From Pseudorhodobacter antarcticus (GTDB taxonomy: Bacteria > Pseudomonadota > Alphaproteobacteria > Rhodobacterales > Rhodobacteraceae), in the NCBI GenBank assembly GCA_945860375.1, contig CAMAQR010000077.1, forward strand, positions 1 through 15,191: a DNA stretch of 15,191 nucleotides. Direction: 5' to 3'. The notes beneath the pieces were generated by a model. That model did not search any database, had not been told where the DNA came from, and saw only the letters and a program-made list of their open reading frames with translations. The position numbers and the translations under genes are program-made. Each line of letters starts with the position of its first letter. The stretch's first letter is position 1. Of this stretch, positions 96 through 15,191 are shown in pieces.

Positions 96-146
96 AATGG
101 GCAATTCTCCGAGAGTTTTGCCCTCCGGTAAACCCGGGGCGGTTCA
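1..146 (-). mobile_element. IS3-family insertion sequence, one end only (partial at window edge)
   Basis: The minus strand from 146 begins TGAACCGCCCCGGGTTTACC, the GC-rich terminal inverted-repeat type of many IS3-family elements. A transposase OrfA start follows about 50 bases inside. The element runs off the left edge, so its other end and the target duplication cannot be seen. It interrupts the tyrosine-recombinase reading frame: recombinase-like codons continue up to about 147 and unrelated IS sequence starts at 146. The exact border is judged from the TGA-type terminus and the OrfA spacing, not from a second copy. Confidence 0.8.
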
Positions 147-909: not shown

Positions 910-1034
910 TTATGTGCAGTTCGTCGTGCCGAAAATCGCTGGCGCGTTAGCCTTGCAGGCACTTCACGCAGCGGGCTGCACATAATCACACTGTGCGCAT
1001 AATTGCGATTATGCAGAACTCAACATAATCGCAA
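908..1034. repeat. Cluster of five inverted/direct ATAAT-core repeats at the end of the recombinase element (putative recombination site)
   Basis: Five copies of a motif of about 12 bp related to TGCGCATAATCGC lie in 127 bp: GATTATGTGCAG at 908-919 (reverse), CTGCACATAATC at 976-987 (forward), TGCGCATAATTG at 994-1005 (forward), GATTATGCAGAA at 1007-1018 (reverse) and CAACATAATCGC at 1021-1032 (forward). The first two form a perfect 12-bp inverted repeat. TTGCGATTATG at 1003-1013 and CATAATCGCAA at 1024-1034 form a perfect 11-bp inverted repeat around a 10-base spacer. GCATAAT and ATTATGC (997-1003, 1008-1014) flank TGCG. Paired inverted arms around a short spacer are what tyrosine recombinases bind. 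The adjacent recombinase gene and the IS66 breakpoint at the cluster's edge support an end or attachment site. The repeats are seen directly; their function is inferred. Confidence 0.65.
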
Positions 1035-1227
1035 GAACGCCCTCTTCGCCGGTCACGATGCCGGGGCGCAGAACTGGGCCACCATCGCCTCACTGGTCGA
1101 GACCTGCAAACTCAATGCCATCGAGCCCCATGCCTATCTGACCACCACACTTCTGGCCATCGTCAACGGCCACAAGCAAAGCCAGATCGACGACCTGCTG
1201 CCATGGAATTACGACGCCAAGGTGTGA
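1030..1227 (+). pseudogene. IS66-family transposase (TnpC), C-terminal fragment
   Basis: From 1030 the plus strand encodes RKNALFAGHDAGAQNWATIA, then SLVETCKLNAIEPHAYLT and ends IVNGHKQSQIDDLLPWNYDAKV. These are the conserved C-terminal segments of the IS66 DDE transposase (SLIETCKLN, PHAYL and LLPW signatures). An intact TnpC is about 500 residues; only the last 65 or so remain. The frame can be opened by a TTG at 1003, but codons 1003-1029 belong to the repeat cluster, not to IS66, so the fragment has no proper start. The missing 5' part was probably displaced by insertion of the recombinase element. Confidence 0.85.
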
Positions 1228-1232
1228 TCGGG

Positions 1233-1287
1233 GCACCGCTTACAGTTTTTTGCGCTGCTCGGAAGGTGGGGTTGGTGCACCGCTTAC
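1233..1287. repeat. Direct repeat of the IS66 terminal 11-mer (subterminal and terminal copies)
   Basis: GCACCGCTTAC appears at 1233-1243 and again at 1277-1287, 44 bp apart and in the same orientation. The outer copy fits the IS terminus. The inner one is a subterminal copy just after the transposase stop codon and is followed by a T6 run at 1246-1251. Such paired sites may be transposase contacts. Confidence 0.65.
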
Positions 1288-1293
1288 CCTTCG

Positions 1294-3153
1294 TCAGACC
1301 TGCCCATCATCAAACGAAGCGTGATTTGCCTTGTAAAGCCTTGCATATGTGCCACCCAAGGCGATCAGTTCCGCATGGCTGCCTTGTTCAACGATCTGCC
1401 CCGCACTGAGGATCAGAATCCTGTCCGCATTGCGAACCGTCGCCAGCCGATGCGCAATGATCAAGCCGCTCCTGCCACGCAGTAGAACGGCGAGCGCCTT
1501 CTGTATCTGCCTTTCCGTCTGGCTGTCGATGCTGGAGGTCGCCTCATCAAGCACAAGGATGGGCGCATCGGCCACCAGCGCGCGCGCAAAGCTGATGAGT
1601 TGGCGCTGGCCCATCGACAGATTCGCGCCGCGTTCGTTCAGTTCGGTCATGTAGCCGTTCGGCAGTCGCTGGATCAGGTCATGCGCACCCACGGTGCGCG
1701 CGGCCTCCATCACGTCGGAGTCGGTGGCGGTGGTCTTGTTGTACCGGATGTTGTCCATCACGGTGCCAGTAAACAGGAACGGCTCTTGCAGCACCATCGC
1801 GATCTGCGCGCCAAGCGAGCGTTGCGTGACGCGGCGCACGTCATGTCCACCAACCAGCACCACCCCGTCGGAGACCTCGTAGAACCGATGGATCAGCGAC
1901 ATGACGCTGGACTTCCCCGACCCGGTCGGGCCGACCAGTGCGACCGTCTCGCCGGGGGCCACGGTGAAGCTGACGCCCTGCAGCACCGGCTGGTCGGGCA
2001 GGTATGAGAACCGCACGTCGCGAAACTCCACAGCGCCGGGGGTGCCGGGGGGCAGGTCGATTGCGTCTGGGGCATCCTCGATCCCGATGGGCACGTCCAG
2101 AACCTCGGTCAGACGCTGGCCCGAGGCCATGGCGCGCTGCATCACCGAATACTGCATGGTCAGCGACCGCACCGGATCAAAGAACCTTTGGATGAAGAAC
2201 AGGAACGCGACCATCACGCCCACTTCCATCTCGCGGTTCAGCACCATCCCTCCACCGACCACCACGACCGCCGCCATCGCCAGCCCGGTCAGCGCATCGA
2301 CGATCGGCACCAGCACCTGCGCATAGCGCGCCGCCACCAAATGGGTGCGCAGGTTGGCCTGCGCTTTGTCCTCGAAAAGCTGCATGTTGACGGTCTGGCG
2401 GGTCATGCCCTGCACCGTGCGCACTCCGTGGATCCCCTCGGCCAGCGCACCCGCCGTGACCGAGTTCGTGTCATGCGCCGCGATGAAGGCGGCACGCGCG
2501 CGCGGGAGCCAAACGATGCGGACCAGAAACAGGATCGGCAGGATTGACAGCGTCAGAAGACCCAGTGGCCAGTCCAGCCACAGCATGCAGCCGACGATGC
2601 CGAACAGCAGCACCAGATCGCCCACCGAAATGACCGAGGTTTCTAAGAACTCCTGCATCGCGTTCACGTCGCCCTGCAGCCGCGACATCAGGCGGCCCAC
2701 CTCGGTCTGGTCCATGAAGCTTTGCGACACGCGTTGAAGATGGGCGAACATCGCCTCACGGATGTCGAACAGAACGTTTTCGGCCACGCGCCCGACCAGC
2801 TTTTCCTGAGTGAAGCTGGACAGGAAATTGACGACGATGGCAACCGCAAAGGCCAGCACCGACCAAAGCAGCGCGCTGCGCCCGTCGGGGGCCAAAAGGC
2901 CGTCGTCGATGGCGGTGCGGATGATGATCGGGATAGAGAGTTGCGACAGGGTGAAGACCAACACCGCGACGACCGAGATCATCAACTGCCGCCGGTAGGG
3001 GCGCACAAAGACCCAGATCCGGCGCATCACATTGGTATCGAAGACGCGGCCGAACATCTCTTCGCGGATGCGGTGAGAGCCGACAACGGCACGCGGCGGG
3101 CGGCGACCGTCCTCGCGCACCTCGTTGCGCTCCATTTCGGTTTCGCCGCTCAC
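1294..3153 (-). CDS. Heterodimeric ABC exporter, canonical half (permease-ATPase fusion)
   Basis: This is a 619-residue half-transporter: a six-helix type IV/ABC-exporter membrane domain (about 45-340) fused to an ATPase domain (about 370-619). Walker A is GPTGSGKSS (408-416), the Q-loop Q456, the signature LSMGQ (512-516, with Met for Gly), Walker B ILVLDE (532-537) with the catalytic Glu537, and the switch His568. It pairs with the gene just upstream; the complex should sit in the inner membrane and expel a hydrophobic or amphipathic compound. I chose GTG at 3153: GGAG lies 7 bases upstream and GTGA overlaps the upstream stop by 4 bases. ATG at 3135 is an alternative. The operon appears to end here; six bases after the stop an IS66 end begins, so the native terminator seems lost. 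Substrate unknown. Confidence 0.9.
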   Translation of the reverse strand: MSGETEMERNEVREDGRRPPRAVVGSHRIREEMFGRVFDTNVMRRIWVFVRPYRRQLMISVVAVLVFTLSQLSIPIIIRTAIDDGLLAPDGRSALLWSVLAFAVAIVVNFLSSFTQEKLVGRVAENVLFDIREAMFAHLQRVSQSFMDQTEVGRLMSRLQGDVNAMQEFLETSVISVGDLVLLFGIVGCMLWLDWPLGLLTLSILPILFLVRIVWLPRARAAFIAAHDTNSVTAGALAEGIHGVRTVQGMTRQTVNMQLFEDKAQANLRTHLVAARYAQVLVPIVDALTGLAMAAVVVVGGGMVLNREMEVGVMVAFLFFIQRFFDPVRSLTMQYSVMQRAMASGQRLTEVLDVPIGIEDAPDAIDLPPGTPGAVEFRDVRFSYLPDQPVLQGVSFTVAPGETVALVGPTGSGKSSVMSLIHRFYEVSDGVVLVGGHDVRRVTQRSLGAQIAMVLQEPFLFTGTVMDNIRYNKTTATDSDVMEAARTVGAHDLIQRLPNGYMTELNERGANLSMGQRQLISFARALVADAPILVLDEATSSIDSQTERQIQKALAVLLRGRSGLIIAHRLATVRNADRILILSAGQIVEQGSHAELIALGGTYARLYKANHASFDDGQV

Positions 3154-4991
3154 GACCGGTCTCCAAAAGATTCGTGCTGAAGGTCGTAGAGCGCGCGGTA
3201 GCGGCCGTTCAGAGCCAGCAGGTCGTCATGCGTCCCCTCTTCGGCGACGCGGCCCCCGTCCAGCACCAGAATGCGGTCGGCATGCATCAGAGTGTTCAGC
3301 CGGTGCGCGATCAGGATGGTGACGCGGTTCGCAGCCTTGGCGCGGATGGCGGCAAAGATCCGCTCTTCGGTGCGGGCGTCGATGGCGGCGGTGCTGTCGT
3401 CGAAGATCAGCACCGCAGGCTCCAAGATCAGGCTGCGCGCGATCGACATGCGCTGGCGTTGCCCGCCCGACAGCGAGGCGCCACGTTCGCCCACCACCGT
3501 GCGATAGCGTTCGGGCAGCCCGTCGATATAGTCGTGCAACTGCGCGTCGCTGCTGGAGGTCTCGATTCCTGCCTCGGGCACCCAGGGGTCGCCATAAGCG
3601 ATGTTGTTTTCCATCGTTGTGGTAAACATGAACACGTCCTGTGTGACCACCGCGACGGCCTTGCGCACCGACGGCAGCGTGACGCTGCGGATATCCTGGC
3701 CGTCCAGCGTGATCGCACCGCCGGTGACGTCGTAAAAACGTGGGATCAGTTGCGCCACCGTGGTCTTGCCGCTGCCCTGTTCGCCGACGATGCCTCTGGT
3801 CTCGCCCCGGCGCGCGGTGAAGGAGATGTCGCGCAGCACCAGATGGTTGGGCGCCGAGGGATAGGCAAAGCTGACATGGTCCAGCTGCAGCGTGCCTTCA
3901 GTCAGGGTTAGGGCGGGCGCGTCGGGGGCGGTCGACACCGCAGGCTCCAGATCCAGAAGCGCAAAGATCCTCGCGCCGCAGGTCGAGGTGCGAGCGACCG
4001 AATTGACCAGCATCCCCAGTTGACGGACCGGCATCTGCAGAATCATCATGAAGGTCAGGAACGCGGTCAGCGTGCCCACCGTCATCTCACCGGCTTGGAC
4101 CTTTAAGCCGCCGACTAGCAGGACCAGCCCCATCGCCGCAAAAAACGACAGTGTCATCGCCGACGTGCTGCGCACCCTCAGGTCCACCCGTTCATGCGCA
4201 AGGTCTAAGGCCCGCAAGGACGCAGCACGGAACTTGGCCAGTTCATGCTCCTGCGCGGCAAAGGCCCGCACGACGCGGATGCCGGCCAGGTTTTCCTCCA
4301 TCACACGGGTCAGGACGGACAGGCGCTCCTGCAGGTCAAGCCAGGTTTGCCGTAGTTCCAGCTGCGAGGTCGACGAACGCCACCCGACATATGGCACGAA
4401 GCTGAGCGCCAGCAGCCCAAGCACGGGGTCTATGGCGATCAGTCCCCATCCGCCAAAGCCGATCAGTACCACCAAGAGCAGAAGTCGCACCACACCTGTG
4501 GCAAAGAACATCCGCGCGCCTTCAAGGTCCAGCAGCCCCAGCGTGATCAGATCGCCCGAATGCATCCGGTCATGGAAACTGAAACTCAGATGCTGGATCT
4601 TGTCGTAATAGGCCAGCCTCAGACGCAGGCCGGTGTGATGGCCCACCGCCTCACTGAAGTAGTTCTGAAAGGTCGCGAACAGGCCGCGCAAGGTCGACAC
4701 TGCCAAAACCAGCAGCGCGGTGATGAGCAACGCCCTCGTCGCGGCGTCGTCACCGCCGGTCGCCACCACTTGCGTCTGGTCCACCGCACGGCCCAGAAGC
4801 TGCGGGATGATCAGTTGCAGCACGGCGGCGAACAGGGTGGAGACCAGAGCGAAGGCCACCTGCCAAGGCGTTTCCATCCCGATGCGCAGCACGCGCCACA
4901 TCGTACGCAACCCCTTGGATGGGCTGACGGTGTCGGTCAGGCCAAGCACCTCAACCGGGCGCGAGCCGGGGTGCGCCTGCGCCTCAGGCAT
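3150..4991 (-). CDS. Heterodimeric ABC exporter, degenerate-site half (permease-ATPase fusion)
   Basis: This is a 613-residue half-transporter. It has a hydrophilic leader of about 35 residues, membrane helices between about 42 and 330, and a C-terminal ATPase domain: Walker A GEQGSGKTT (403-411), Q451, perfect signature LSGGQ (507-511), Walker B VLIFDD (527-532) and switch His563. Asp532 stands where the catalytic Glu is expected. The partner has Glu but an altered signature (LSMGQ), so the pair has one active and one degenerate ATP site, as in TM287/288, BmrCD and MdlA/MdlB-type exporters. Start at ATG 4991 (MPEAQAHPG); it overlaps the upstream SDR stop by 8 bases (ATGCCTGA). A longer frame upstream only reads through the SDR gene. 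The ribosome-binding site is weak (GGTGG), which fits translational coupling. Substrate unknown. Confidence 0.88.
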   Translation of the reverse strand: MPEAQAHPGSRPVEVLGLTDTVSPSKGLRTMWRVLRIGMETPWQVAFALVSTLFAAVLQLIIPQLLGRAVDQTQVVATGGDDAATRALLITALLVLAVSTLRGLFATFQNYFSEAVGHHTGLRLRLAYYDKIQHLSFSFHDRMHSGDLITLGLLDLEGARMFFATGVVRLLLLVVLIGFGGWGLIAIDPVLGLLALSFVPYVGWRSSTSQLELRQTWLDLQERLSVLTRVMEENLAGIRVVRAFAAQEHELAKFRAASLRALDLAHERVDLRVRSTSAMTLSFFAAMGLVLLVGGLKVQAGEMTVGTLTAFLTFMMILQMPVRQLGMLVNSVARTSTCGARIFALLDLEPAVSTAPDAPALTLTEGTLQLDHVSFAYPSAPNHLVLRDISFTARRGETRGIVGEQGSGKTTVAQLIPRFYDVTGGAITLDGQDIRSVTLPSVRKAVAVVTQDVFMFTTTMENNIAYGDPWVPEAGIETSSSDAQLHDYIDGLPERYRTVVGERGASLSGGQRQRMSIARSLILEPAVLIFDDSTAAIDARTEERIFAAIRAKAANRVTILIAHRLNTLMHADRILVLDGGRVAEEGTHDDLLALNGRYRALYDLQHESFGDRS

Positions 4992-5733
4992 GACCACCGT
5001 CCACCGACAGAACCTGACCCGTGATCCAGCTTGCGTCCGGTCCCACCAGAAAGGCCACGGCCCCGGCGATGTCTTCGGGCTGGCCCAGCCTACGGGTGTA
5101 AGTGGAAGCCAGAATGCCTGCCTGCCCTTCTGGCCCATAGCTGTCCCATTGCGCGCGGCTTGCCGGGTTCGACAACACAAAGCCGGGGGCGACGGAATTC
5201 ACAGTGAGGCCGAAGGGTCCCAGTTCCAGCGCCAACTGGCGGGTCAGGCCGACCAGTGCGTGCTTGGCGGCGGCATAGGCTTGGATACCGGTCAGGCTGG
5301 CGCGTAGGCCCGCGCCCGAGCTGATGGTGACCAAACGTCCCTGCCGCGCCGCTTTCATCGCAGGTGCAAAGGCCTGGGCGAGGTGAAAGGCGCTGTCGAC
5401 GTTGGCGGCAAAGATCGCCCGCCAGTCGTCTTCTGACACCTCTTCTACTGGACGGCTGACTTGGCCGCGCACGCCGCCCGCCGCGCTGACCACGATCAGG
5501 GGAGGGGTATCGGCCAACCGGTCAGCCAGCCCGCGGGCATCGGCGATCTGGCCAAGGTCGGCTGCAACGCCCGGTAGGCCTAGAGCTGCGCAGGCGGCGT
5601 CGAAGGCGGGTCCGGGAAGGTCGGTCACGGTGACGCGCGCGCCGTCGGCGGCCAGGCGGCGGGCGATGGCCGCGCCGATGCCGCCAACCACACCCGTGAC
5701 AAGCGCGGGCGTCCCATCCAGGATCAGGCCCAT
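4984..5733 (-). CDS. Short-chain dehydrogenase/reductase (SDR), first from operon end
   Basis: This is a classical SDR of 249 residues that would oxidise an alcohol or reduce a ketone in the cytoplasm. The nucleotide-binding motif is TGVVGGIG (13-20). Asp38 after the second strand suggests NAD(H) preference. The catalytic residues are Asn111, Ser139, Tyr153 and Lys157 (YAAAK), and the C-terminus WITGQVLSVDGGHA is typical. The structural NNAG motif is replaced by SAAG (83-86). Start is ATG at 5733: GGAGG lies just upstream, and the longer in-frame extension to 5811 reads through the creatininase gene. It overlaps that gene by 10 bases and the exporter by 8. Substrate not predictable; the neighbours suggest an amide-derived or modified amino-acid intermediate. 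Confidence 0.88.
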   Translation of the reverse strand: MGLILDGTPALVTGVVGGIGAAIARRLAADGARVTVTDLPGPAFDAACAALGLPGVAADLGQIADARGLADRLADTPPLIVVSAAGGVRGQVSRPVEEVSEDDWRAIFAANVDSAFHLAQAFAPAMKAARQGRLVTISSGAGLRASLTGIQAYAAAKHALVGLTRQLALELGPFGLTVNSVAPGFVLSNPASRAQWDSYGPEGQAGILASTYTRRLGQPEDIAGAVAFLVGPDASWITGQVLSVDGGHA

Positions 5734-6422
5734 GGCCCCTCCAGCGCGGCGCGGGTTTCTTCGACGCCGATCTGCCACAGGGCTCGGGTCACGGCGTCGG
5801 GCTTTTGCCATGCACCGCCAAAGTTGCCGTCCCCCAATATTGCGCGTGCAGCGGCGGGAGGGCTGGCGCGCAACAGGTCGAAATCGGTCAACGGCTTGTC
5901 ACCCGCCGGGGCCGGGGCATGGTGCAGCCGGGTCCAAGGGAAGTTTTCCATCCAGCTGGCATGACTGCCGCCGCCGTTGTCTTGAACGAAGGCCCAGGTC
6001 CTCGGCGCGCGCCACCAGTTGTGGAATTTGATCGACGTATCGCCCCAGTCGGCCATCAGTTCCTGCGCCAGCGCATCGACGGGCGCGTTGCCGCCATGAC
6101 CGTTCACGATCAAGATCTGCCGGAACCCTGCCCGGCGGATCGATGCGAGGGTGTCGCGCATCACCGCCAGCAGCGTTTCCACTCGCAGCGTCACCGTGCC
6201 GGGATATTCGACGAAATAGGGCGCAAGGCCGAAGGGCATCACCGGCCAAACCGGAACGCCCAAGGGTTCAGCCGCATCCAGCGCCACCTTTTCAGCCAAG
6301 ATCATATCGACGCAGAGCGACAGTTGCGCATGCTGTTCGACTGACCCGATGGGCAAAACAGCCCGCGGCCCGCGCAGGGCTGCGGCCGCCACATCGGCCC
6401 AGTTCATATCAGCAAGTTTCAT
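5724..6422 (-). CDS. Creatininase-family metal-dependent amidohydrolase
   Basis: The 232-residue protein is close to, but a little shorter than, usual creatininase-fold enzymes (about 240-260). The metal-site motifs are present: IGSVEQH (Glu29, His31), Asp39, the glycine-rich NGHGGN (107-112, His109), and SHASWMEN (His154, Glu159) in the place of the usual HAGExETS. YPGTVTL (73-79) matches the family's FPGTxSL. The stretch after EQH is AQLSLCVD rather than GPHLPLxTD, so the substrate pocket probably differs from true creatininase. Family members open lactams and hydrolyse amides, formamides or cyclic diketones. ATG at 6422 overlaps the M14 stop by 4 bases (ATGA). It is cytoplasmic, with no signal peptide. 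The reaction is unknown; an amide or lactam bond is the best guess. Confidence 0.85.
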   Translation of the reverse strand: MKLADMNWADVAAAALRGPRAVLPIGSVEQHAQLSLCVDMILAEKVALDAAEPLGVPVWPVMPFGLAPYFVEYPGTVTLRVETLLAVMRDTLASIRRAGFRQILIVNGHGGNAPVDALAQELMADWGDTSIKFHNWWRAPRTWAFVQDNGGGSHASWMENFPWTRLHHAPAPAGDKPLTDFDLLRASPPAAARAILGDGNFGGAWQKPDAVTRALWQIGVEETRAALEGPWA

Positions 6423-8071
6423 AACATCGTCTCAAACCTATGGGTGCCGCCCTTTTCAGAGCGTGCAGTGACGGTGACGCGACCGGTTCCGCGCACCAGC
6501 CATTCGACCTTGCGGGCCACGGGCGACCATTGCTGGCCCCAATTTGAGTATTCATAGTTGCGTTCGTTGCGGCCCGCCAGATGGCCCAGATCCGCGGCCA
6601 TCGGATTCATCAACACCTCGGCCCCTTCGATGGTCACGGTCACCGGGCGCGCAACCTTGTTCTTGACCGCGACGTCCGAAAGGTTCGTTGGCAGAAAGCC
6701 ATGGTTGGCGACGATCGCCGTCACCTTGTGCAGATCGCCCCCCAACGGGGTGACGGTGACGCACTCGACCCGCACGCGGGGCGCGGCGGCCGCGTGGCGC
6801 AAGTTGAAAAGCGTGTTGTCGTGGCAGACCTTTTCCAGAAGGTGGCCGGGCGGATTCCGGTAGCTCCAGATATAGACCATCCCGCCGACCTCGACCGGAC
6901 CAAGCTGGGGGTGATCGAAGGTTTTCCAGTCGCGGAAGCCATGGTCGCCGACATTCGCCAAGACCCAGTTGAAAAGCTTGCGCTGCACGTCCGCATCCCG
7001 GGGGCGGAGGTTGTAGTAGCCCTTTTTCTCGACCCCGGCGGCGATCTCGATGTCCCAAAGCTCGGTCGAGAAGCAAATGATCCCCTTCTCTTCATAGACC
7101 CAATCCTTGAGCGAGCCATGGCGCACCTTGGACTTGTCCGGCGTGAAATCTTCATAGGTGGAGATCACGGGGTAGCCGGTCAGACGTGTGCCAACCTCGC
7201 CCAGCGCCTTGTAAAGCGCCAGGTCGCGCGGGCTCATCTCGGCATCGGTGGCCATCATCGAGGGGCGCAGGATGATGCCGCCATGAGTGTGATAGGCGCA
7301 CATGCCGCAGATGTTGGGATGGTCGAGGATCAGACGCGCCATGCCCATCGTCTCGGGTTCCGAGAAAGGGTATTCGCCCGCGCCGTATTCCTGCGGCGAC
7401 CAATTGATCGGAAAGTTGCGGTTCATGTTGCCGTCGGCCTGGGGCAGGATCTTCACATCGGCGCCGTTATAGTCGGGGATCAGGCCTTCGGGGTAGATGC
7501 GGAAGTATTCGCCGCCCTCTTCGCCCGGTTCGCGCTGGATCATCAGGCGCGGTTCGGCGGGGTCTTTCTTCCATTCGCCCTTGGGGTCTGGGACGCGCAT
7601 GTTGACGATGTAGCCATCGCCGTCGATGTCTTGCGCCTGCAAGCCGTCCAACCGGTCCTCGCCGGGCAGGCAGCGCCCGTTGCCGCACCAGGGGTGGTAG
7701 GGTGCCTTCAGCGCATATTCGGCGCCGTCGGGATTGATGCGGGGGATAATGTAGAAGACCTGACCGTCGACCAGCCGCGTCACCTCAGAGTCGGTGCCGT
7801 AGCGGGTCAGCAGGTAGTGGATCGCGTAAAGCGCTGTGGCCGAGGTGGCGTGTTCCTCTGCGTGGATCTGGGCATCGATGTAGAAGCCCGGCTTCTCCAG
7901 CGCGGGGCCGGTATCGGGGTTGGTGATCTGCATGAACCACACCTCGCGCCCACGATGGGTTCGGCCGATTGAAGTCAGCTTTGTCAAATGCGGATAGGCG
8001 GCGGCCAGAGCCTGCAGATGCCCGGTCATTGCGTCGTAGTCGTGGTAGGTGTCGAATGGGATGTCCATCAT
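6419..8071 (-). CDS. M14-family zinc carboxypeptidase, cytoplasmic
   Basis: This 550-residue protein has the full M14 catalytic set: zinc ligands in IHAEEH (His70, Glu73) and in YHTHGG (His261, possibly His263), substrate-side Arg111 (PRINPDG), NMNRNF (Asn217, Arg218), and the catalytic Glu337 in STELWD. The catalytic domain spans about 5-370; the last 150 residues look like an added beta-rich domain of unknown role. Between the zinc motifs lies DIDGDG (148-153), a DxDxDG calcium-loop pattern. Cysteines at 129, 134, 255 and 258 (the latter CGMC, beside the zinc His) are notable. There is no signal peptide, so it acts on imported substrate. ATG at 8071 has GGAGA upstream and overlaps the M20 stop by 4 bases. 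Expected activity: removal of a C-terminal residue or side-group from a peptide-like molecule. Confidence 0.88.
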   Translation of the reverse strand: MMDIPFDTYHDYDAMTGHLQALAAAYPHLTKLTSIGRTHRGREVWFMQITNPDTGPALEKPGFYIDAQIHAEEHATSATALYAIHYLLTRYGTDSEVTRLVDGQVFYIIPRINPDGAEYALKAPYHPWCGNGRCLPGEDRLDGLQAQDIDGDGYIVNMRVPDPKGEWKKDPAEPRLMIQREPGEEGGEYFRIYPEGLIPDYNGADVKILPQADGNMNRNFPINWSPQEYGAGEYPFSEPETMGMARLILDHPNICGMCAYHTHGGIILRPSMMATDAEMSPRDLALYKALGEVGTRLTGYPVISTYEDFTPDKSKVRHGSLKDWVYEEKGIICFSTELWDIEIAAGVEKKGYYNLRPRDADVQRKLFNWVLANVGDHGFRDWKTFDHPQLGPVEVGGMVYIWSYRNPPGHLLEKVCHDNTLFNLRHAAAAPRVRVECVTVTPLGGDLHKVTAIVANHGFLPTNLSDVAVKNKVARPVTVTIEGAEVLMNPMAADLGHLAGRNERNYEYSNWGQQWSPVARKVEWLVRGTGRVTVTARSEKGGTHRFETML

Positions 8072-9441
8072 AGAGTATCTCCGCTGCGGCCAAAGTGTTC
8101 CATGATCGCGGCGGCATATTTTATGCCCTTGATATACTTGTCGATATGGATGTTCTCGTCCGGGGCGTGCAGGTTCGCGCCGGGATTGGCAAAGCCGGTC
8201 AGCACGCAGGGAATCCAGACGTGGCGCAGGATCGCGCCTTCGGCCGAGACGCCGTTGACGATGGGCAATTCGCCATAGACCTCGGTCGCGGCGGCGATGA
8301 TGGCTTGGCTGATGTCTTCCTTAACGCTGATCTTGTAGGGCGGCTCAGCCCCGTCAAAGGCCTTGACCTCGATATGACCAAAGCCGTGCTTGACCAGATG
8401 GGCCTTAAGGCGGCGGATCGCGGCGTCGGGCTGGATGTTCGGGATCAGGCGGAAATCAAGCCTTGCGCGCGCTTCGTTCGGGACGATGGTCTTGGTGCCC
8501 GGGCCGGTGTACCCCGCGATCAGCCCCTGGATGTTGGCGGTGGGTTCATAGCTGCGCGCGCGCAGAGCGTCGATACCGTCGCGGCCCATCGCAAATTGGT
8601 CGATCCCCCATTCTTCCTTCATCGCAGCAAGGTCGACCCGGGCAGCTTTGTCGGCCAGTTGCGCCTCGTCATCGGGCCCAAGCTGCCAGAGGCCTTCGTA
8701 CCAATCCTCGATCAGGATGCGGCGGTTTTCGTCCATGATGGAGTTAAGCGCCCGGATCAGGTCCCAGACAGGTGCGGGCACCAGCGGGAAGTTCAGCGAG
8801 TGGATGTCCTTGCTGGCTCCCCGCGCGATCAGTTCGACGAACAGCACCGATTTCAAGCCCAAGGAGACATCCGGCACCTCGGTGCCCGTCTCGATGGAGC
8901 CGTCAAGGCAGTGCATACCGTCGGCGGCCAGCAAATCCTTGTTCTGTTCAGCCCAGGCGGCGAGGTTCGGCGAGCCGATCTCTTCCTCGCCCTCGATCAG
9001 GAATTTCAAGTTGGCTGGCACCTCACCACGCACCTGAAGGAACGCTTTGGCCGCCTTGGTAAAGGCCAGGACGCCAGACTTGTTGTCGGTGGCACCACGT
9101 CCGTAAAGGACGCCGTCCACCACTGCGCCCGACCAAGGGCCGCCATGCGTCCAAGCGTCAATCGGTTCGGGGGGCTGCACGTCGTAATGCGCGTAGCACA
9201 GGATGGTTTTGGCCTTCGCCTTCGCCTCAAGGTGGCCAAAGACCACCGGCGGGCCTTCGGCCAGTTCGTGAAAATCGGCGGGCAGGCCATCACGGCGCAT
9301 CATGTCGCGGATCAGCGTGGCCCCTTCGCGCAGGCCGATGTTCTGGGCACTGATCGAGGGTTGCTGAACGAAGGTTTGCAGATCACGGATGCATTCGTCG
9401 GCATTCGCATCGATCCAGTCGTAGATGGCTTGCATGGTCAT
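8068..9441 (-). CDS. M20-family metallopeptidase (dipeptidase-like)
   Basis: The 457-residue length is typical of M20 di-zinc dipeptidases of the carnosinase/CNDP-like type. Metal and catalytic residues follow the family order: YAHYDVQP (His85, Asp87), GRGATDNKSG (Asp119, bridging), EGEEEIGS (Glu153 as base, Glu154 as ligand), Asp180 in CLDGS, and a late His in NLHAPDENIH. The lid (dimerisation) domain is the middle part, about 200-380. No signal peptide, so cytoplasmic. The reaction is hydrolysis of a dipeptide or N-acyl amino-acid bond. ATG at 9441 has AGGAG about 7 bases upstream and overlaps the upstream SDR stop by 4 bases (ATGA). A second ATG two codons in is less well placed. Confidence 0.9.
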   Translation of the reverse strand: MTMQAIYDWIDANADECIRDLQTFVQQPSISAQNIGLREGATLIRDMMRRDGLPADFHELAEGPPVVFGHLEAKAKAKTILCYAHYDVQPPEPIDAWTHGGPWSGAVVDGVLYGRGATDNKSGVLAFTKAAKAFLQVRGEVPANLKFLIEGEEEIGSPNLAAWAEQNKDLLAADGMHCLDGSIETGTEVPDVSLGLKSVLFVELIARGASKDIHSLNFPLVPAPVWDLIRALNSIMDENRRILIEDWYEGLWQLGPDDEAQLADKAARVDLAAMKEEWGIDQFAMGRDGIDALRARSYEPTANIQGLIAGYTGPGTKTIVPNEARARLDFRLIPNIQPDAAIRRLKAHLVKHGFGHIEVKAFDGAEPPYKISVKEDISQAIIAAATEVYGELPIVNGVSAEGAILRHVWIPCVLTGFANPGANLHAPDENIHIDKYIKGIKYAAAIMEHFGRSGDTL

Positions 9442-10145
9442 GTATCGGCTCCTGTGGACAAGGCCCAGGCGTCCAACCGCTGGCCTGACAGCTGCATGGG
9501 ACGCATCTGTGCCAGACGGGCGAAGGCGGGGGCGAGGCGGATCGGGTCAACCCAGCGGGCGCGCTGTTCGGCGCCGTAGGTTGTCTCGCTCATGGGGGTA
9601 TGCATCAGCATGCCCGGCGTGATGGTGTAGGAGGCGATGCCGTGCGCTGCGCCCTCCATAGCAAGGCATTTGGAAAAGCCTTCAAGCGCGTGCTTGGCGG
9701 CGCAATAAGCGGTCTCGTTCTCGAACCCTTCGATGCCAGAGCGGGAGGAGACGAAGATCAGCGTGCCCCCCCGCGCCTTCATCTGCGGCCAGAGGGCTTG
9801 GGTCAGTTGGAAGGCGGCTTGGATGCCGACGTTCAGCGTTGCCTGAAAGGTGGCAAGGCTGGTGGCGTCGACCGCCTCAACCCGCAGGATGGCGGCGTTG
9901 TGGATCAGGGTGTCGACAGCAGCGGGCAGTTGGGCAATGGCAGCGGCGGTGGCGGTGGCGTCGGACAGATCCACCGTCAGCGCGATGGCGCCGGGGCACT
10001 GGGCTTGCGTTGTCGCCAGCGCGTCCGCGTGGCGATCCATCAGGAACAGCCGCGCGCCTTGTGCCGACAGGTGGCGCGCGATGGCGGCACCCAGGCCCTG
10101 GGCTGCGCCGGTGACAACGATGGTCTGCGAGGAAAGCGCAATCAC
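9438..10145 (-). CDS. Short-chain dehydrogenase/reductase (SDR), second copy
   Basis: This 235-residue SDR has the cofactor motif TGAAQGLG (12-19), Asp37 (NAD preference) and catalytic Asn105, Ser134, Tyr147 and Lys151 (YCAAK). HNAA (82-85) replaces NNAG. After the TPG (176-178) the substrate loop differs from the other SDR, and the usual C-terminal TGQxxxVDGG is reduced to LSGQRLDAWAL, so the two SDRs are unlikely to be recent duplicates and should have different substrates. The start is GTG at 10145, overlapping the oxidoreductase stop (GTGA). The ribosome-binding site is poor, so translation probably depends on coupling. No better in-frame start exists. Confidence 0.86.
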   Translation of the reverse strand: MIALSSQTIVVTGAAQGLGAAIARHLSAQGARLFLMDRHADALATTQAQCPGAIALTVDLSDATATAAAIAQLPAAVDTLIHNAAILRVEAVDATSLATFQATLNVGIQAAFQLTQALWPQMKARGGTLIFVSSRSGIEGFENETAYCAAKHALEGFSKCLAMEGAAHGIASYTITPGMLMHTPMSETTYGAEQRARWVDPIRLAPAFARLAQMRPMQLSGQRLDAWALSTGADT

Positions 10146-11203
10146 GGCTGGACCCAGCGCCTTTCGGTGCCCGATAGGCGGACCGCGTCCAGCACCTTCT
10201 GGTTTGCCAGCCCGTCGCGGAACGTAGCCCCGCGCGCCAGAGGGCGACCTTCCGCGATTGCGGCGGCCATCTCACGCAGGACGGCCACGACCGAGACGTT
10301 CCAGATGCCGGCGTTCAGGCCCGGCAGCGCGGCGTTGGGGTCTGGCTGGGTGATGTCTTCAAACCCCTGCCCCGGCTTGGCAAACCACAGGTTTTCATCG
10401 GCATTGTCGAGGGTGATCGTCCCCTTCGATCCGAAGACCTGGGTCTGGTTGCCCATGTTGTGCGCCGCGACGCCGGACATGAAGACCTGCGCAAGCACGC
10501 CGCTTGCCATTTCAAGCCCCATCCAGGCCAGATCGTCCGCGGTTGCAGTCCAGGCTGCGCCAGTGGCCTTGTCCAGACGGTCGGGGACCAGGGTCGGCGC
10601 GGCACCGGTGACCCAGGCCACATCGCCCAGCCACCAGCGCAGCATGTCGACCTGATGGCTGCCGTTGGCACCAAGACGGCCGCCGCCCTGATCGGCCAGC
10701 GACCACCAGTCGCCCTTGGGCCGGCTGGAGGGGTTGGCCCAAGAATTGCCAATATTGGCGATGTTGACGTGGCGGATCTGGCCGAGATCTCCTTCAGCGA
10801 TCATCCGGGCGATGTAGGCGCGGTTCGGGTTGAAGCGCAGTTCGTGGTCGATCATGTGGATGCGGCCCGCAGCCTCGGCCGCGTGCAGCATCTGCGCGGC
10901 TTCAGCGGCATTCATCGCGGTGGGCTTTTCGCACAAGACATGTGCCCCGGCTGCCAGCGCACCCAGCGTCTGGGCTGCGTGCAGGTTGGTGGGGGTGGCG
11001 ATGCAGACCAGATCGAAAGTGTGGTCAGCCAGCATGGCCTGCCAGTCATCATAGGCATGCGGAACGCCGAACGCATCCGCGGCTGACCGGGCACTTTCCA
11101 GCCGACCCGAGGCGATGGCAACAACCTCGGCCCCGGGCACATGGGCCAATGCGGGCAGGTAAGCCGCACGGGCGAAGCTGGCCCCAATAATTCCGACTTT
11201 CAT
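10142..11203 (-). CDS. Gfo/Idh/MocA-family oxidoreductase
   Basis: This 353-residue two-domain dehydrogenase has an N-terminal Rossmann domain (about 1-120) beginning MKVGIIGASFA, the conserved CEKPTA (91-96, catalytic-side Lys93), and a C-terminal substrate domain. GGGRLGANGSHQVD (173-186) matches the family's GGGxLxDxGxHxxD, with His183 retained and the Asp position taken by Ala179. Members oxidise sugars, inositols and some imines or amino-acid-like compounds with NAD(P). ATG at 11203 is 3 bases after the permease stop, with GGGGA as ribosome-binding site. A second family member ends at the right edge of the window, so the operon carries two. Substrate unknown. Confidence 0.88.
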   Translation of the reverse strand: MKVGIIGASFARAAYLPALAHVPGAEVVAIASGRLESARSAADAFGVPHAYDDWQAMLADHTFDLVCIATPTNLHAAQTLGALAAGAHVLCEKPTAMNAAEAAQMLHAAEAAGRIHMIDHELRFNPNRAYIARMIAEGDLGQIRHVNIANIGNSWANPSSRPKGDWWSLADQGGGRLGANGSHQVDMLRWWLGDVAWVTGAAPTLVPDRLDKATGAAWTATADDLAWMGLEMASGVLAQVFMSGVAAHNMGNQTQVFGSKGTITLDNADENLWFAKPGQGFEDITQPDPNAALPGLNAGIWNVSVVAVLREMAAAIAEGRPLARGATFRDGLANQKVLDAVRLSGTERRWVQP

Positions 11204-11206
11204 GAT

Positions 11207-12127
11207 TTATCCCCGTTCCTTGAGGCGCGGGTCAAGCAGGTCACGCAACCAATCGCCAATGATGTTGAAGCTGAGCACGGTGACCACGATCGCCATGCCG
11301 GGAAACACCGCCAGCCACCACTTGTTGGCGATCAGCTGGTCGCGGCTTTGGGCCAGCATGCTGCCCCAGGTGGGCGTTTCGGGCGGGACGCCAAGGCCAA
11401 GGAAGGAAAGCGATGCCTCGGCCAAGATCACGCTCGCCACATTGAACGAGGCGATGACCGTCAGCGGGGCCACGATATTGGGCAGGATGGTCCGGAACAT
11501 GATTGACGTGGTGCTGTCGCCCATGGCGCGCGCCGCTTCGACAAACTCCTTTTCGCGCAAGGAAAGCGTCTGGGCGCGCACGATGCGGGCATAGGTGACC
11601 CATTGGCCTATCCCCAGAACCAGGATCAGGTTCAGCAGCCCGGGGCCAAGAACGACAAGAAACATGATCGCCAGCAGGATGAAGGGAAACGCCAGCTGAA
11701 TGTCGCCGAGCCGCATGATTACGTCATCGATCCAGCCGCCGAAATAGCCCGACAAAAGGCCCGCGACGGTGCCGATGGTGCCGCCCACCAGGATCGCCGA
11801 TATGCCGACCATCAGCGAAACCCGCGCGCCGTACAGCAGTCGCGAAAACACGTCCCGCCCAAGCGCGTCCGATCCCATGACAAAGGTCGCCCCGTTGGGA
11901 CCGGGGGCCATTGGACCAGCCAATCGCATCATGATGTTCTGCCGGTTCGGGTCCAGTGGCGACAGCCACGGGCCGAAGATCGCGACGACCAGCACGACGA
12001 ACAGGATCGCCAGCGCCAGCAGGGGCCATTTCGCGGCCACCATGCTGCGACCTGCGCGGCGCAACTCGCGGCTGAAGTTCGATCCGGTGACGGGCGAGAC
12101 GGCGAAGGTATCGGGAATGTTGGTCAT
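11207..12127 (-). CDS. ABC importer permease, DppC/OppC type
   Basis: The 306-residue inner-membrane permease has the OppC_N-type first helix (about 34-55), the conserved GSDALGRDVFSRLLYGAR (85-102), five further helices, the cytoplasmic ATPase-contact loop EAARAMGDSTTSIMFRTILP (197-216), SFLGLGVPPETPTWG (241-255) and the C-terminal GDWLRDLLDPRL. It forms the translocation channel with the gene immediately upstream and receives substrate from the binding protein two genes upstream. ATG at 12127 follows that permease's stop by 12 bases, with AAGG at the expected distance. The ATPase subunits that must power it are not in this window. Confidence 0.92.
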   Translation of the reverse strand: MTNIPDTFAVSPVTGSNFSRELRRAGRSMVAAKWPLLALAILFVVLVVAIFGPWLSPLDPNRQNIMMRLAGPMAPGPNGATFVMGSDALGRDVFSRLLYGARVSLMVGISAILVGGTIGTVAGLLSGYFGGWIDDVIMRLGDIQLAFPFILLAIMFLVVLGPGLLNLILVLGIGQWVTYARIVRAQTLSLREKEFVEAARAMGDSTTSIMFRTILPNIVAPLTVIASFNVASVILAEASLSFLGLGVPPETPTWGSMLAQSRDQLIANKWWLAVFPGMAIVVTVLSFNIIGDWLRDLLDPRLKERG

Positions 12128-12139
12128 CTGGCGCGCCCT

Positions 12140-13114
12140 TCAGAGTTTCACGCGCGGGTCGATCCGCGCATAGATCAAGTCGACGATCAGGTTGAGGGCG
12201 ATGAAGATCACCGATAGCACGATGACCGAGGCCTGGACGAGGGGAATGTCCTTCTGGTTGATCGCGTTGAACACCAATCGGCCGATCCCCGGCCAGGAAA
12301 ACACCGTCTCGATCACCACGACACCGCCAAGAAGGAAGCCGAATTCAAGCCCGACCATGGTGACGACCGGCAGCCAGGCGTTGCGCAGCGCGTGGTTGAC
12401 CACCACGGCGCGTTCGCTGATCCCCTTCGACCTTGCGGTGCGGACGTAATCCTGGCTGAGCACCTCAAGCATCGAGGATCGCACCAGCCGGGCATTCCGG
12501 GACAGCGAATAGAACCCGACGGCGACGCCTGGCAGGACCATGTAGTAGACCGAACTGGGGACGTTGGTCAGCGCGGTCATGAACTCGCCCTTCAAGAGCG
12601 GCATGATTAGCGGCACATGCCCCGAGATCGGGAACCAGTTGAGGTAAAGGCCGAAGAACAGAATCATCATGATGCCAAGCCAGAAATTCGGGATCGACTG
12701 GCCGAACATCGCCAGCGTCATAATGCCCCCGTCCACGGGCGTGCCGCGGTAGAGGGCGGCAAAGACGCCGAAGGGAATGGCAAGGCCGATAGCGAAGATC
12801 ATCGAAAAGACGGTCAGCTCGATCGTGGCAGGCAGGGCGCCAAGCACGATATCCATCGCGGGCTGGCGGTAGCTGAGAGAATTGCCGAAGTTGCCCTGCA
12901 GGATGTTGCCGAGGTAGGTCAGATACTGGATATGCAGCGGTTGGTCGAAACCAAGCGCCTTGCGGATCATCTCGATCTCCTCTGGGGTCGCGCGTTCGCT
13001 GACAAAGAGGAACGTCGGATCGCCGCCAATCTGCAGGGCCACGAAACTGATCAAAGTCACCCCGAAGATGACAATGATGCTTTGAAGAAGCCTTCGGATG
13101 ATGAACGTCCACAT
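12140..13114 (-). CDS. ABC importer permease, DppB/OppB type
   Basis: This 324-residue partner permease has the first helix at about 9-29, then the family's GDP (31-33) and LGFDQPL (54-60) periplasmic motifs, helices from about 95 onward, the ATPase-contact loop YVRTARSKGISERAVVVNHA (223-242), ETVFSWPGIGRL (269-280) and the C-terminal IYARIDPRVKL. It pairs with the DppC-type protein downstream to import a peptide, opine, glycoside or similar solute. ATG at 13114 has only a weak ribosome-binding site. A large hairpin lies just upstream (13153-13189), which may lower permease expression relative to the binding protein. Confidence 0.92.
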   Translation of the reverse strand: MWTFIIRRLLQSIIVIFGVTLISFVALQIGGDPTFLFVSERATPEEIEMIRKALGFDQPLHIQYLTYLGNILQGNFGNSLSYRQPAMDIVLGALPATIELTVFSMIFAIGLAIPFGVFAALYRGTPVDGGIMTLAMFGQSIPNFWLGIMMILFFGLYLNWFPISGHVPLIMPLLKGEFMTALTNVPSSVYYMVLPGVAVGFYSLSRNARLVRSSMLEVLSQDYVRTARSKGISERAVVVNHALRNAWLPVVTMVGLEFGFLLGGVVVIETVFSWPGIGRLVFNAINQKDIPLVQASVIVLSVIFIALNLIVDLIYARIDPRVKL

Positions 13115-13152
13115 GGTGCCGGGGGCCTTTCCAAGCAGGGATCGCAGGGTGT

Positions 13153-13189
13153 GGCGGCACGCGGGGCATGAAGCCCCCCGCGTGCCGCC
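13153..13189 (-). promoter_or_regulatory. Intercistronic GC hairpin between binding protein and permease
   Basis: GGCGGCACGCGGGG (13153-13166) and CCCCGCGTGCCGCC (13176-13189) form a perfect 14-bp stem with a 9-base loop. The hairpin starts 8 bases after the binding-protein stop. No U-run follows on the minus strand, so it is not a standard intrinsic terminator. In binding-protein transporter operons, hairpins here commonly stabilise the upstream mRNA or cause partial termination, giving excess binding protein. Structure seen; role inferred. Confidence 0.75.
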
Positions 13190-13197
13190 GGGTTGCG

Positions 13198-14748
13198 TCA
13201 GTTCAAGGTGGCCTTGAAGAGGTAGACCTTCTCATCCGGACGCGCGGTCCAGTTCAGGCGCTTGGAGACACCGTAGAAGTCGGGCTGGAAGTACATGTGC
13301 AGCCAAGGGCCGTCATCGTAGAACACCTTCAGCATCTCATCGATGATGGCACGGGTTTCTTCAGGCGACTTCGAGGCGGAAATGTCAGCCCAGCGGTCGA
13401 ACCAGCTCGGGTCGTTCCAGTGGGTGTAGTTGGTGCCACTGTCGACTTTCGCAAGGTCGGTCATGTCGTAGATCGGCGACCAGAGCGCGCCGCCGGAGCC
13501 CAGGAAGAACAACGGGCCGACATTGCGTTCACGGATCAACGGCACATAGACCGAGCCCCATTCCATGATGTCGGTCTCCACCTTCAGGCCGACATCCGAC
13601 AGATACTGTGCCACGGCCAGAACAACGTTCTCGTCGTTCAGGTAACGTCCACGGCCCGCCTGGAAGCGGATCGTAAACCGCGTTCCGTCCGCCTGACGCG
13701 GCCAGCCGGCAGCGTCCAGCAACTCTTCGGCCTTTTTTGGGTCATAAGCATAAGGCGTCAGCGACTTGTTGGCGTTCGGCGGGTTGACGATGCCGGTCAT
13801 ACGTTCGCAGGGAAAGTTCAGCAGTTGCGCACAGATCGTCGGCACATCGACTGCATATTGCAGCGCGCGGCGCACATCGGGGTTCTGGATCGCATCGCCA
13901 CCTGGCATCTTGGCGAATTCTTCAGACAGGTTGAAGCCGACATACATGCGCCGGGTTCCCTGCACCGCCTGCACCGCCGACGTGCTGGACCCGTTGATCG
14001 CGTCGATCTGGTCGGGAGCCACGTTGGTGATGATGTCGACATTGCCTGCCATCAATTCGGCGGACCGGGTCGAAGCTTCCGGGATGATCCGGTAGACGAT
14101 ATTCTGGAAGTTGCCTGGTTCAGCCACCTTGCTCAGACGCACTTCAGCGCCTGGCGTCCAGCTTTCCAGCTTGTACGAACCGGACCCGATCGGAGAGATC
14201 GCGGCCTGTTCCAGCGTCATCTTTTCGTAGCTGTCCTTGCAGTGGACATAGACCTCGGCCAACAAGCCGAAGGCGATCTGGTTCGGGGCGCTGATATTGA
14301 CCTGCACTTCAGTATCGCTCAGCGCGACCGCATCGACGAACCCGACGGAAGAAAACACGAAACCGGGCGTGTTGCCAGTAAAGGCGTTCGCAGGATCCTT
14401 GGCGCGGTTGAAGCTGTAAGCCACGTCTTCTGCCGTCAGCGCTTCACCATCGTGGCAGGTGCGCCCGGACTCGATAGTGTAGGTGTAGGCCAGACCGTCT
14501 TCCGAGATGACCAGATTGGTCGCAAGATCAGGGACCACCGATCCATCTGCTTCGATCGACTGCAGCGTGTCAAAAATGTGGCGGACCACGTTGGCATTGT
14601 CGCGGCTGGAAATGGCAGCCGGTTCAAAAGTGGTGATATCTGCACTGAGACCGACAACAAGTGTGTCGTCGGAGACCTGCGCAAATGCCGTACCCGCAAG
14701 CAACAGGCCTGCGGTAGTTGCCATTAAAAGATGTCTTGTCTTGGGCAT
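13198..14748 (-). CDS. Periplasmic solute-binding protein, family 5 (peptide/opine/glycoside type)
   Basis: The 516-residue protein has a Sec signal peptide: KTRH, a hydrophobic core (about 7-19) and an AFA cleavage site after residue 23, giving mature QVSDDTL. There is no lipobox, so it should be free in the periplasm. SBP_bac_5 features: LVVGLSADITTFEP near the mature start, CHDGEALTAEDVAYSFNRAKD (98-118), GSGSYKLESW (188-197), and NPDVRRALQYAVD (289-301). Four cysteines (98, 170, 306, 314) could form disulfides, which is not usual for the family. ATG at 14748 has GAGGA upstream, and its A overlaps the upstream TAA. It delivers substrate to the two permeases downstream. The exact ligand cannot be read from the sequence. 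Confidence 0.92.
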   Translation of the reverse strand: MPKTRHLLMATTAGLLLAGTAFAQVSDDTLVVGLSADITTFEPAAISSRDNANVVRHIFDTLQSIEADGSVVPDLATNLVISEDGLAYTYTIESGRTCHDGEALTAEDVAYSFNRAKDPANAFTGNTPGFVFSSVGFVDAVALSDTEVQVNISAPNQIAFGLLAEVYVHCKDSYEKMTLEQAAISPIGSGSYKLESWTPGAEVRLSKVAEPGNFQNIVYRIIPEASTRSAELMAGNVDIITNVAPDQIDAINGSSTSAVQAVQGTRRMYVGFNLSEEFAKMPGGDAIQNPDVRRALQYAVDVPTICAQLLNFPCERMTGIVNPPNANKSLTPYAYDPKKAEELLDAAGWPRQADGTRFTIRFQAGRGRYLNDENVVLAVAQYLSDVGLKVETDIMEWGSVYVPLIRERNVGPLFFLGSGGALWSPIYDMTDLAKVDSGTNYTHWNDPSWFDRWADISASKSPEETRAIIDEMLKVFYDDGPWLHMYFQPDFYGVSKRLNWTARPDEKVYLFKATLN

Positions 14749-15191
14749 TAGGACGTCCTCTTTGCTGTTGGAGTTGGTCGGGAGGTGTGGCTGACTGGCC
14801 CCGCCAGGTCATTCAGTTCAGCCGGATTGATGTTTTTGCCTTGGGAGGAAGAGGCGATGCACGCCTCGACCATGCGGAGCGATTTCAGGTGGTCCGCGCC
14901 GGAACAGAGCAGGGGCGCGGCGTCGATCAGGTGGGCCAGAAAGTCGGCCAGCAAGGCTGCGGCATCATCGCGCCACATCTCGGTCTGCGGCAGATCGACC
15001 GGGGTAAAACTGCGGTCGTCGCGCCGGGCGTAGGACAGGTCGCCGAACATCTCGGCCTGAACCGCGACGCCGTTGGCGCAGTCGGTGCGCCAGTTGAAGG
15101 CGAGGTGATCATGGTTGCCAGCCCAGGTGCCTTGATAGGTCACCTCGATACCACCCTCGAAGCTGATCAGGGCCGAGACGTTGGCGTCGCC
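14748..15191 (-). CDS. Gfo/Idh/MocA-family oxidoreductase, C-terminal part (partial at window edge)
   Basis: The frame is open from the right edge to TAA at 14748-14750, giving 147 residues. Apparent GTG at 15143 is internal, because upstream codons (GDANVSALISFEGGIE) continue the same beta-sheet pattern. The sequence resembles the C-terminal substrate domain of Gfo/Idh/MocA enzymes: alternating strands (ALISFEGGIEVTYQGTW), then ALLADFLAHL and the closing helix DHLKSLRMVEACIASSSQGKN with its family-typical helix plus SSxxG. The last 25 residues are a Pro/Thr/Ser-rich tail. The Rossmann domain lies outside the window. Stop and next start overlap (TAATG), tying it to the transporter. Family call is good, not certain without the N-terminus. 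Confidence 0.8.
   Translation of the reverse strand, partial: GDANVSALISFEGGIEVTYQGTWAGNHDHLAFNWRTDCANGVAVQAEMFGDLSYARRDDRSFTPVDLPQTEMWRDDAAALLADFLAHLIDAAPLLCSGADHLKSLRMVEACIASSSQGKNINPAELNDLAGPVSHTSRPTPTAKRTS

Follow-up and report, generated by a model that had tools for sequence, protein, structure and literature searches.

The described systems closest to the genes considered here are the Dpp/Opp/Nik importers with SBP_bac_5 binding proteins, allantoin and purine ureide catabolism (AllB, PuuE, AllA, AllD), ectoine utilisation (DoeA/DoeB), the inositol pathway with a creatininase-type ring hydrolase (IolN/IolG) and the heterodimeric ABC exporters. The genes lie on a 15,191-nucleotide stretch of Pseudorhodobacter antarcticus DNA (contig CAMAQR010000077.1), referred to as the window. 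Twelve of them, all on the minus strand, run from 15191 to 1294 in the order GFOa (partial), SBP, PermB, PermC, GFOb, SDR1, M20, M14, CRE, SDR2, ABC1 and ABC2. They code for two Gfo/Idh-type oxidoreductases (GFOa, cut by the window edge, and GFOb), a solute-binding protein (SBP), two permeases, two short-chain dehydrogenases (SDR), M20 and M14 metallohydrolases, a creatininase-superfamily hydrolase (CRE) and two exporter half-transporters. Our reading, to which we give a probability of roughly 60%, is that they are the distal twelve genes of a conserved, co-regulated supercluster through which a single class of compound is taken up and broken down in the cytosol. Gene content, conserved order, linkage, co-occurrence and an operator-like motif were all observed in relatives of the window organism.

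Each known system resembles the locus in part. Like a Dpp/Opp/Nik importer, the window encodes an SBP_bac_5 binding protein with two permeases, and ATPases labelled DppD and DppF on the strength of similarity occur in a divergent arm of the relatives' cluster; unlike it, the supercluster has its ATPases split off into that other arm, and the SBP falls far under the cut-offs of the DppA (68 bits against 1005), GsiB, NikA and CntA models. Of the Dpp-type importer of the preliminary description, the window has the binding protein and permeases; no importer ATPase gene is among its genes. These scores come from an NCBIfam scan that covered the enzymes of the window together with 16 gene families from its flanks in relatives, while M32, DUF4438, GntR and RidA were scanned in Pfam only; they reflect the best 25 models per protein, a limit that matters most for the SDR, pyridoxal phosphate (PLP) and ABC proteins. 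Allantoin catabolism has paralogues of four of its enzymes in the supercluster, but they score 352-358 bits against 424.6 for PuuE, 286 against 357.85 for AllB, 72-78 against 160 for AllA and 150 against 496.2 for AllD, and the supercluster adds peptidases and glycosidase-like, PLP and DapA-like enzymes. A gene set with both M24 and AstE-type enzymes recalls ectoine utilisation, whereas the DoeA score is about 43 bits against 575-613 and the DoeB score 102 against 403. The creatininase-superfamily enzyme and the Gfo/Idh dehydrogenases recall the inositol pathway, but an inositol-type ring opening by CRE was ruled out by the IolN (42 bits against 245) and IolG (127 against 355) scores. CRE itself matches superfamily PF02633 but scores under the creatininase equivalog cut-off (69.6 bits against 235). 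No enzyme reached the cut-off of any named model among its best 25, in agreement with the earlier remark that no named pathway could be recognised. Allantoin, ectoine, inositol, creatinine and guanitoxin-type memberships were all rejected, with every listed score under the named-model cut-offs.

The exporter genes are presumably closest to heterodimeric exporters of the TM287/288 and BmrCD type. ABC1 and ABC2 are adjacent half-transporters with one degenerate nucleotide site; Walker B reads DD in ABC1 (14 of 16 sequences, two being unmatched by the pattern) and DE in ABC2 (15 of 15), with one gene possibly counted twice, and the altered ABC2 signature LSMGQ/LSLGQ is conserved in homologues. 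This pattern would fit a heterodimeric exporter with one degenerate site. Unlike the described pairs, ABC1/ABC2 end a catabolic-looking operon.

Gene order and two-arm layout in relatives

Relatives were collected by a genome scan with the M14 alignment and two peptide patterns, which reaches near relatives only. It yielded 48 loci from 47 genomes, since L011 and L047 belong to the same genome, and 47 of the 48 loci were carried forward. Calling genes by longest open reading frame was dropped because antisense frames won, and a hexamer-scored caller was used instead. The search for the same neighbourhood elsewhere, which the preliminary description had proposed, found all twelve genes in the same order in 4 of the 48 loci. 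These are L001, in a Tabrizicola metagenome-assembled genome (MAG; G001) that is the nearest relative at 90-98% protein identity; L003; L041, where the caller split SBP in two; and L006, in a Roseicyclus MAG, which keeps the order at just 62-86% identity. The counts of adjacent pairs are lower bounds, as loci have at most 10 kb of flank and many are cut by contig ends. GFOb-SDR1 was adjacent in 22 loci, SDR1-M20 in 18 and M20-M14 in 17; for M14-CRE, CRE-SDR2, SDR2-ABC1 and ABC1-ABC2 the counts were 5, 6, 4 and 6. Given the low counts around CRE, SDR2 and the exporter, GFOb-SDR1-M20-M14 is the best-conserved run, and creatininase, SDR2 and the exporter look like additions to a conserved middle. 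Two further loci (L004, L013) keep ABC2-ABC1-M20-SDR1-GFOb-PermC with M14 relocated. The creatininase-SDR2 pair, perhaps a movable two-gene cassette, lies about 4 kb from M14 on the opposite strand in Devosia aurantiaca (L008, L097). From position 8848 of L097 (G262) there is also a partial second M14 copy, with one internal stop in the genome search, near which M24 and DppD look split, perhaps through assembly or decay.

The conserved order does not start with the first window gene. Extension of the Tabrizicola locus brought in nine more genes upstream, namely M32, a PLP aminotransferase-like gene, VOC, AstE-like, PuuE-like, ureidoglycolate-lyase-like, DapA-like, a GntR (FCD) regulator and an epimerase. 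A divergent arm of ten genes holds two DUF4438 genes, Ldh_2, M24, an Xaa-Pro-type amidohydrolase, a second PLP enzyme, GHL10-like, AllB-like, DppD and DppF. In relatives the supercluster has about 31 genes in divergent arrangement, and the counterpart of the window is its distal part. The importer-hydrolase-exporter unit proposed earlier keeps its order in part of the relatives, but it is not self-contained and belongs to a cluster that starts well upstream. DppD and DppF end the divergent arm in all five genomes examined (L072, L073, L075, L076-L077, L078). The GHL10-like gene, which lies outside the window, served as a marker, and its glycosidase-like product has a TIM-barrel glycosidase fold of the GH-A type. 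Two divergent arms were present in 11 of 18 marker-bearing genomes read further (G001, G003, G005, G007, G008, G052, G119, G214, G266, G177 and G278); G278 has neither DUF4438 nor M24. By analogy with these relatives, the window organism would carry the rest of the supercluster as well.

Devosia relatives add a caprolactamase-beta-like subunit. A reduced version in a Meiothermus MAG (G012, L094) has VOC, AstE-like, AllB-like, epimerase, Gfo/Idh, PLP and GHL10-like genes, together with RidA, M32, two amidohydrolases and a DapA-like gene flanked by two M14 genes; within the stretch read, no exporter, creatininase or SDR labels were found. On a plasmid of the haloarchaeon Halomontanus rarus (L082), an M14 gene (32%) lies near Gfo/Idh, amidohydrolases and a full Dpp-type importer, a locus that is possibly the archaeal counterpart.

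A shared palindrome and the co-occurrence of cluster genes

A palindrome with the core TGTCGACA sits between the arms and ahead of relocated pieces of the cluster. All ten M32-DUF4438 intergenic regions read carry TGTCGACA, three of them as the full ATTGTCGACAAT. In the cluster loci, with L049, L080-L082, L088, L089 and one further group of loci excluded from the statistics, 30 intergenic TGTCGACA sites, made unique by context as some loci overlap, occur in 107.5 kb, where the rate in coding sequence predicts 3.2; the second most frequent of the 256 palindromes has 17 sites versus 24 expected. A cluster gene reads away from 30 of the 30 sites (M32 12, DUF4438 11, DppD 6, GntR 6, SBP 4, PermB 4, GFOa 3, M14 1, and others), versus 36% of intergenic positions in these loci, and 20 of the 30 lie outside the discovery set. 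Twelve genomes were also searched in full with the looser WNTGTCGACANW, which gave 4-14 sites per genome versus 0-5 for the reversed control. Matches were listed for the whole of eight genomes and for part of a ninth; among those listed, five are exact copies of ATTGTCGACAAT, all in the cluster. The window has two TGTCGACA cores inside coding sequence, without full flanks, and none between genes; the lack of an intergenic site would fit a position within a transcript starting at M32. The GntR/FCD regulator of the same arm probably acts on the TGTCGACA palindrome.

The marker was found in 45 of the 47 M14-bearing genomes, the other two being MAGs whose M14 contigs are just 3.8 and 10 kb long. 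The family of the Tabrizicola relative was sampled with 248 genomes, including the centre G001, which is positive for marker, M14 and exporter by choice. Here the marker occurs in 7 genomes and the exporter in 13, while the 4 genomes with M14 all have the marker too. M14 is present in 4 of 7 marker-positive versus 0 of 241 marker-negative genomes (Fisher p 2.3e-7; 8.1e-6 without G001), and the exporter in 5 of 7 versus 8 of 241 (p 3.4e-6; 4.7e-5 without G001). For the exporter, the best 27 or best 5 candidates per genome were scored. It is present in 24 of the 47 M14-bearing genomes (E up to 1e-180) and lies in the cluster, meaning that it shares a contig with M14 or the marker and is no more than about 35 kb away, in 13 of these 24. 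The association of exporter and hydrolases with the importer supposed from the window thus recurs in part of the relatives, contrary to the refuting case named in the preliminary description, in which homologous clusters would never have them together. Six of the 13 sit beside M20, M14 or SDR2; the other seven are some 3.3 kb away from the marker, and where the layout was read (G266, G177, G279) they follow AllB. Creatininase (E up to 1e-30) was found in 19 of 47 genomes but in the cluster in only 6.

Genes and junctions of the window

The twelve same-strand, mostly overlapping genes first described were recovered between 1294 and 15191, and profile matches bore out the family calls for the binding protein, permeases, Gfo/Idh, SDR, M20, M14 and creatininase proteins and both exporter halves. 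Overlaps of 1-10 bp occur at 8 of the 11 junctions. GFOa (14748..15191; all coordinates are on the minus strand), a 3' part of 147 aa, is 94% identical to its L001 homologue over the shared part; the fragment alone gave no family match, and the full-length L018 homologue matches PF01408 and PF22725 (Gfo/Idh). It overlaps SBP (13198..14748; PF00496, E 4.6e-62) by 1 bp (TAATG). A gap of 83 bp (13115..13197) then separates SBP from PermB and holds a strong 14-pair GC hairpin (-44.5 kcal/mol, z -2.44; 4 of 200 shuffles fold equally well). Hairpins of this kind often stabilise or separate the messages of binding proteins; expression may therefore drop after SBP, and uniform expression across the window genes is not to be assumed. 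From the gene spacing, a single transcript would be predicted for the window genes. PermB (12140..13114; Opp2B 307.7 bits, cut-off 350) and PermC (11207..12127; Opp4C 294.3 bits, cut-off 350) are Dpp/Opp/Nik-type inner-membrane permeases, separated by 12 bp, and PermC is followed after 3 bp by GFOb (10142..11203; PF01408, E 1.5e-28; EKP motif at 92).

GFOb, SDR1, M20, M14 and CRE are joined by four overlaps of 4 bp each, and catalytic motifs were found in M20, CRE, SDR1, SDR2 and GFOb. SDR1 (9438..10145; PF00106, E 2.6e-42) has a GTG start and YxxxK. M20 (8068..9441; PF01546, E 1.8e-33) is dipeptidase-like (PRK06446 336 bits, cut-off 369), M14 (6419..8071; PF00246, E 1.2e-43) resembles carboxypeptidase T and carries a long insertion and an extended C-terminus, and CRE (5724..6422; PF02633, E 2.7e-39) has GSVEQH and NGHGGN motifs. 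SDR2 (4984..5733; PF13561, E 6.3e-47; YxxxK) overlaps CRE by 10 bp, its ATG start at 5733 being assigned from relatives and a GGAGG. ABC1 (3150..4991; PF00664 and PF00005; MsbA-like below cut-off), with a degenerate Walker B (FDD), overlaps SDR2 by 8 bp if it starts at ATG 4991, or by 14 bp with GTG 4997. ABC2 (1294..3153), with Walker B DE and the signature LSMGQ, overlaps ABC1 by 4 bp. By simple hydropathy, the SBP has a hydrophobic, signal-like N-terminus and M20, M14 and CRE have none, in line with the earlier statement that the hydrolases lack signal peptides. No RNA families or tRNAs were detected in the window.

The earlier call of three amide-cleaving families holds for the family matches of M14, M20 and CRE, but is qualified for M14. 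Its H70, E73, H261 and E337 align with carboxypeptidase T and are invariant in the relatives' alignment; they correspond to the H, E, H and E of carboxypeptidase that serve as zinc ligands and general base. E72, C129/G130 and H263 stand where carboxypeptidases T and A have R, R and Y (presumably R71, R127 and Y198 of carboxypeptidase A) and are kept in relatives, in an alignment of low identity. Without the standard carboxypeptidase residues, amide cleavage is unproven for M14, which may be a peptidase of unusual specificity or may act on a non-peptide amide. The M14 structure model (pLDDT 63.6) is too poor for a reading of the pocket.

Beyond ABC2, an IS66-type transposase remnant (1030-1246, plus strand; about 81% identical to IS66 genes of Tabrizicola and Agrobacterium plasmids) matches up to 47 bp from the ABC2 stop codon. 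It is a possible rearrangement point, because L001 carries a large open reading frame about 450 bp past ABC2. The 5' part of a tyrosine-type recombinase/integrase (2-865, minus strand, cut by the window edge) is up to 62% identical to Rhizobium and Sinorhizobium plasmid integrases, with the listed matches ending at about residue 240. A nearly identical copy of the operon was found on no plasmid in the plasmid search, where the closest M14 match had 32% identity.

Proposed pathway and alternative explanations

What, then, would such a gene set do? No nonribosomal peptide synthetase, polyketide synthase or ligase was seen among the scanned genes, and those enzymes that could be identified belong to the hydrolases, oxidoreductases, lyases and PLP enzymes, which favours breakdown over synthesis. 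As substrate, a peptide-like compound that contains ring amides and is probably glycosylated fits best. The SBP would capture it in the periplasm, and PermB/PermC would import it, powered by DppD/DppF from the far end of the divergent arm. Its amide bonds would be opened by M14, M20 and CRE and, from outside the window, by M32, M24, the Xaa-Pro-type amidohydrolase and the AllB-like, PuuE-like and AstE-like enzymes. The glycosidase-like enzyme may take off a sugar-like part, Gfo/Idh, SDR, epimerase and Ldh_2 may oxidise a polyol-like part, and the PLP and DapA-like enzymes may cut the carbon skeleton, the order of these steps being provisional. ABC1/ABC2, apparently dispensable, would export a product or toxic intermediate, and the GntR/FCD regulator would control the whole through the TGTCGACA palindrome. 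The processing of a specific amide-containing natural product, first suggested from the window, is plausible.

Several observations weigh against this reading. Of the 18 genomes read further, four are rearranged (G012, G274, G280, G281) and three (G262, G264, G279) have one arm in the stretch read, a partial reading. The ATPases and the operator come from relatives and neither is in the window, the steps are drawn from enzyme family only, and the glycosidase-like structure model is of moderate confidence (pLDDT 72). Ten of the 30 motif sites are the discovery set, related genomes are not independent, and in the eight fully listed genomes the looser motif lies outside the cluster at 50 of 66 sites (16 within it). 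M14 is dispensable, since three of the seven marker-positive family genomes have none at E 1e-100. In 11 of the 24 genomes with the exporter it sits on a different contig, a category that possibly hides contig breaks in MAGs, and homologous exporter pairs occur without the cluster in one Rhizobium plasmid read and in two family genomes. These last findings would suit a separate multidrug transporter placed downstream by chance. We consider such a chance placement rather unlikely, as ABC1 overlaps SDR2, the in-cluster copies occupy two positions (after SDR2 or M20, and after AllB), which indicates repeated retention, and the exporter is enriched in marker-positive genomes.

Other explanations concern the substrate. 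Ordinary peptide scavenging, by a Dpp-type dipeptide importer and cytosolic peptidases with the dehydrogenases and exporter as loosely associated passengers, would account for the SBP_bac_5 importer and for the M14, M20, M24, M32 and Xaa-Pro-type hydrolases. It appears quite improbable when Gfo/Idh, epimerase, SDR, PLP, DapA-like and glycosidase-like genes hold their positions across genera behind the same motif, when the cluster is rare, unlike general peptide use (M14 in 4 of 248 family genomes), and when the SBP scores so far below DppA. The grouping of PuuE-like, AllB-like, ureidoglycolate-lyase-like, Ldh_2 (AllD-like) and creatininase paralogues, with the caprolactamase-beta-like subunit of Devosia, would instead speak for a pathway for cyclic ureides or hydantoins that derives from allantoin breakdown; yet all these enzymes are under their cut-offs (160 bits or more for the lyase), and such a pathway would not account for the peptide-type importer, the glycosidase-like enzyme or M14, M32 and M24, so we see little chance for it. 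Breakdown of glycosylated hydroxyproline- or proline-rich peptides, such as plant or algal cell-wall glycopeptides, draws on the Xaa-Pro-type hydrolases of the supercluster (M24 and one or more amidohydrolases) and on a Granulicella tundricola plasmid (L080, 15001-16395). There a GHL10-like homologue (31%) has as neighbours a proline racemase, FAD oxidoreductases, DapA-like, aminopeptidase P, GH127 and a beta-L-arabinofuranosidase-domain gene, possibly a hydroxyproline-glycopeptide locus. This origin is very unlikely, as the link depends on that single distant neighbourhood and no proline racemase turned up among the scanned supercluster genes, although no search was aimed at one.

We return to the supercluster for one compound class. 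Its novelty lies in the arrangement and not in a new enzyme fold; no title or opening of an abstract in the literature searched, with subscription literature mostly outside it, describes such a cluster. More tentatively, and at somewhat short of even odds, it may be an undescribed catabolic regulon of about 30 genes in Rhodobacteraceae, Devosia, other Rhizobiales and an Acidobacteriaceae MAG, reduced in Meiothermus, that dismantles a widespread glycosylated, ring-containing peptide-like natural product through a new chain of allantoin, ectoine, proline-peptide and inositol enzyme paralogues, with its own exporter for a toxic intermediate in some lineages. Nine amide or ring hydrolase families are grouped in it (M14, M20, M24, M32, creatininase, Xaa-Pro-type amidohydrolase, AllB-like, PuuE-like and AstE-like), and none of them could be given a named function. 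By its motif and its glycosidase-like marker the cluster can be found and tested, and a single binding protein, regulator and divergent promoter suffice in a search for the inducer. Large, rare and patchy yet conserved in order, and with an operator-like motif in common, the gene set points to a single valuable nutrient, and the partial Meiothermus version and the marine, freshwater and soil relatives suggest that the compound is widespread.

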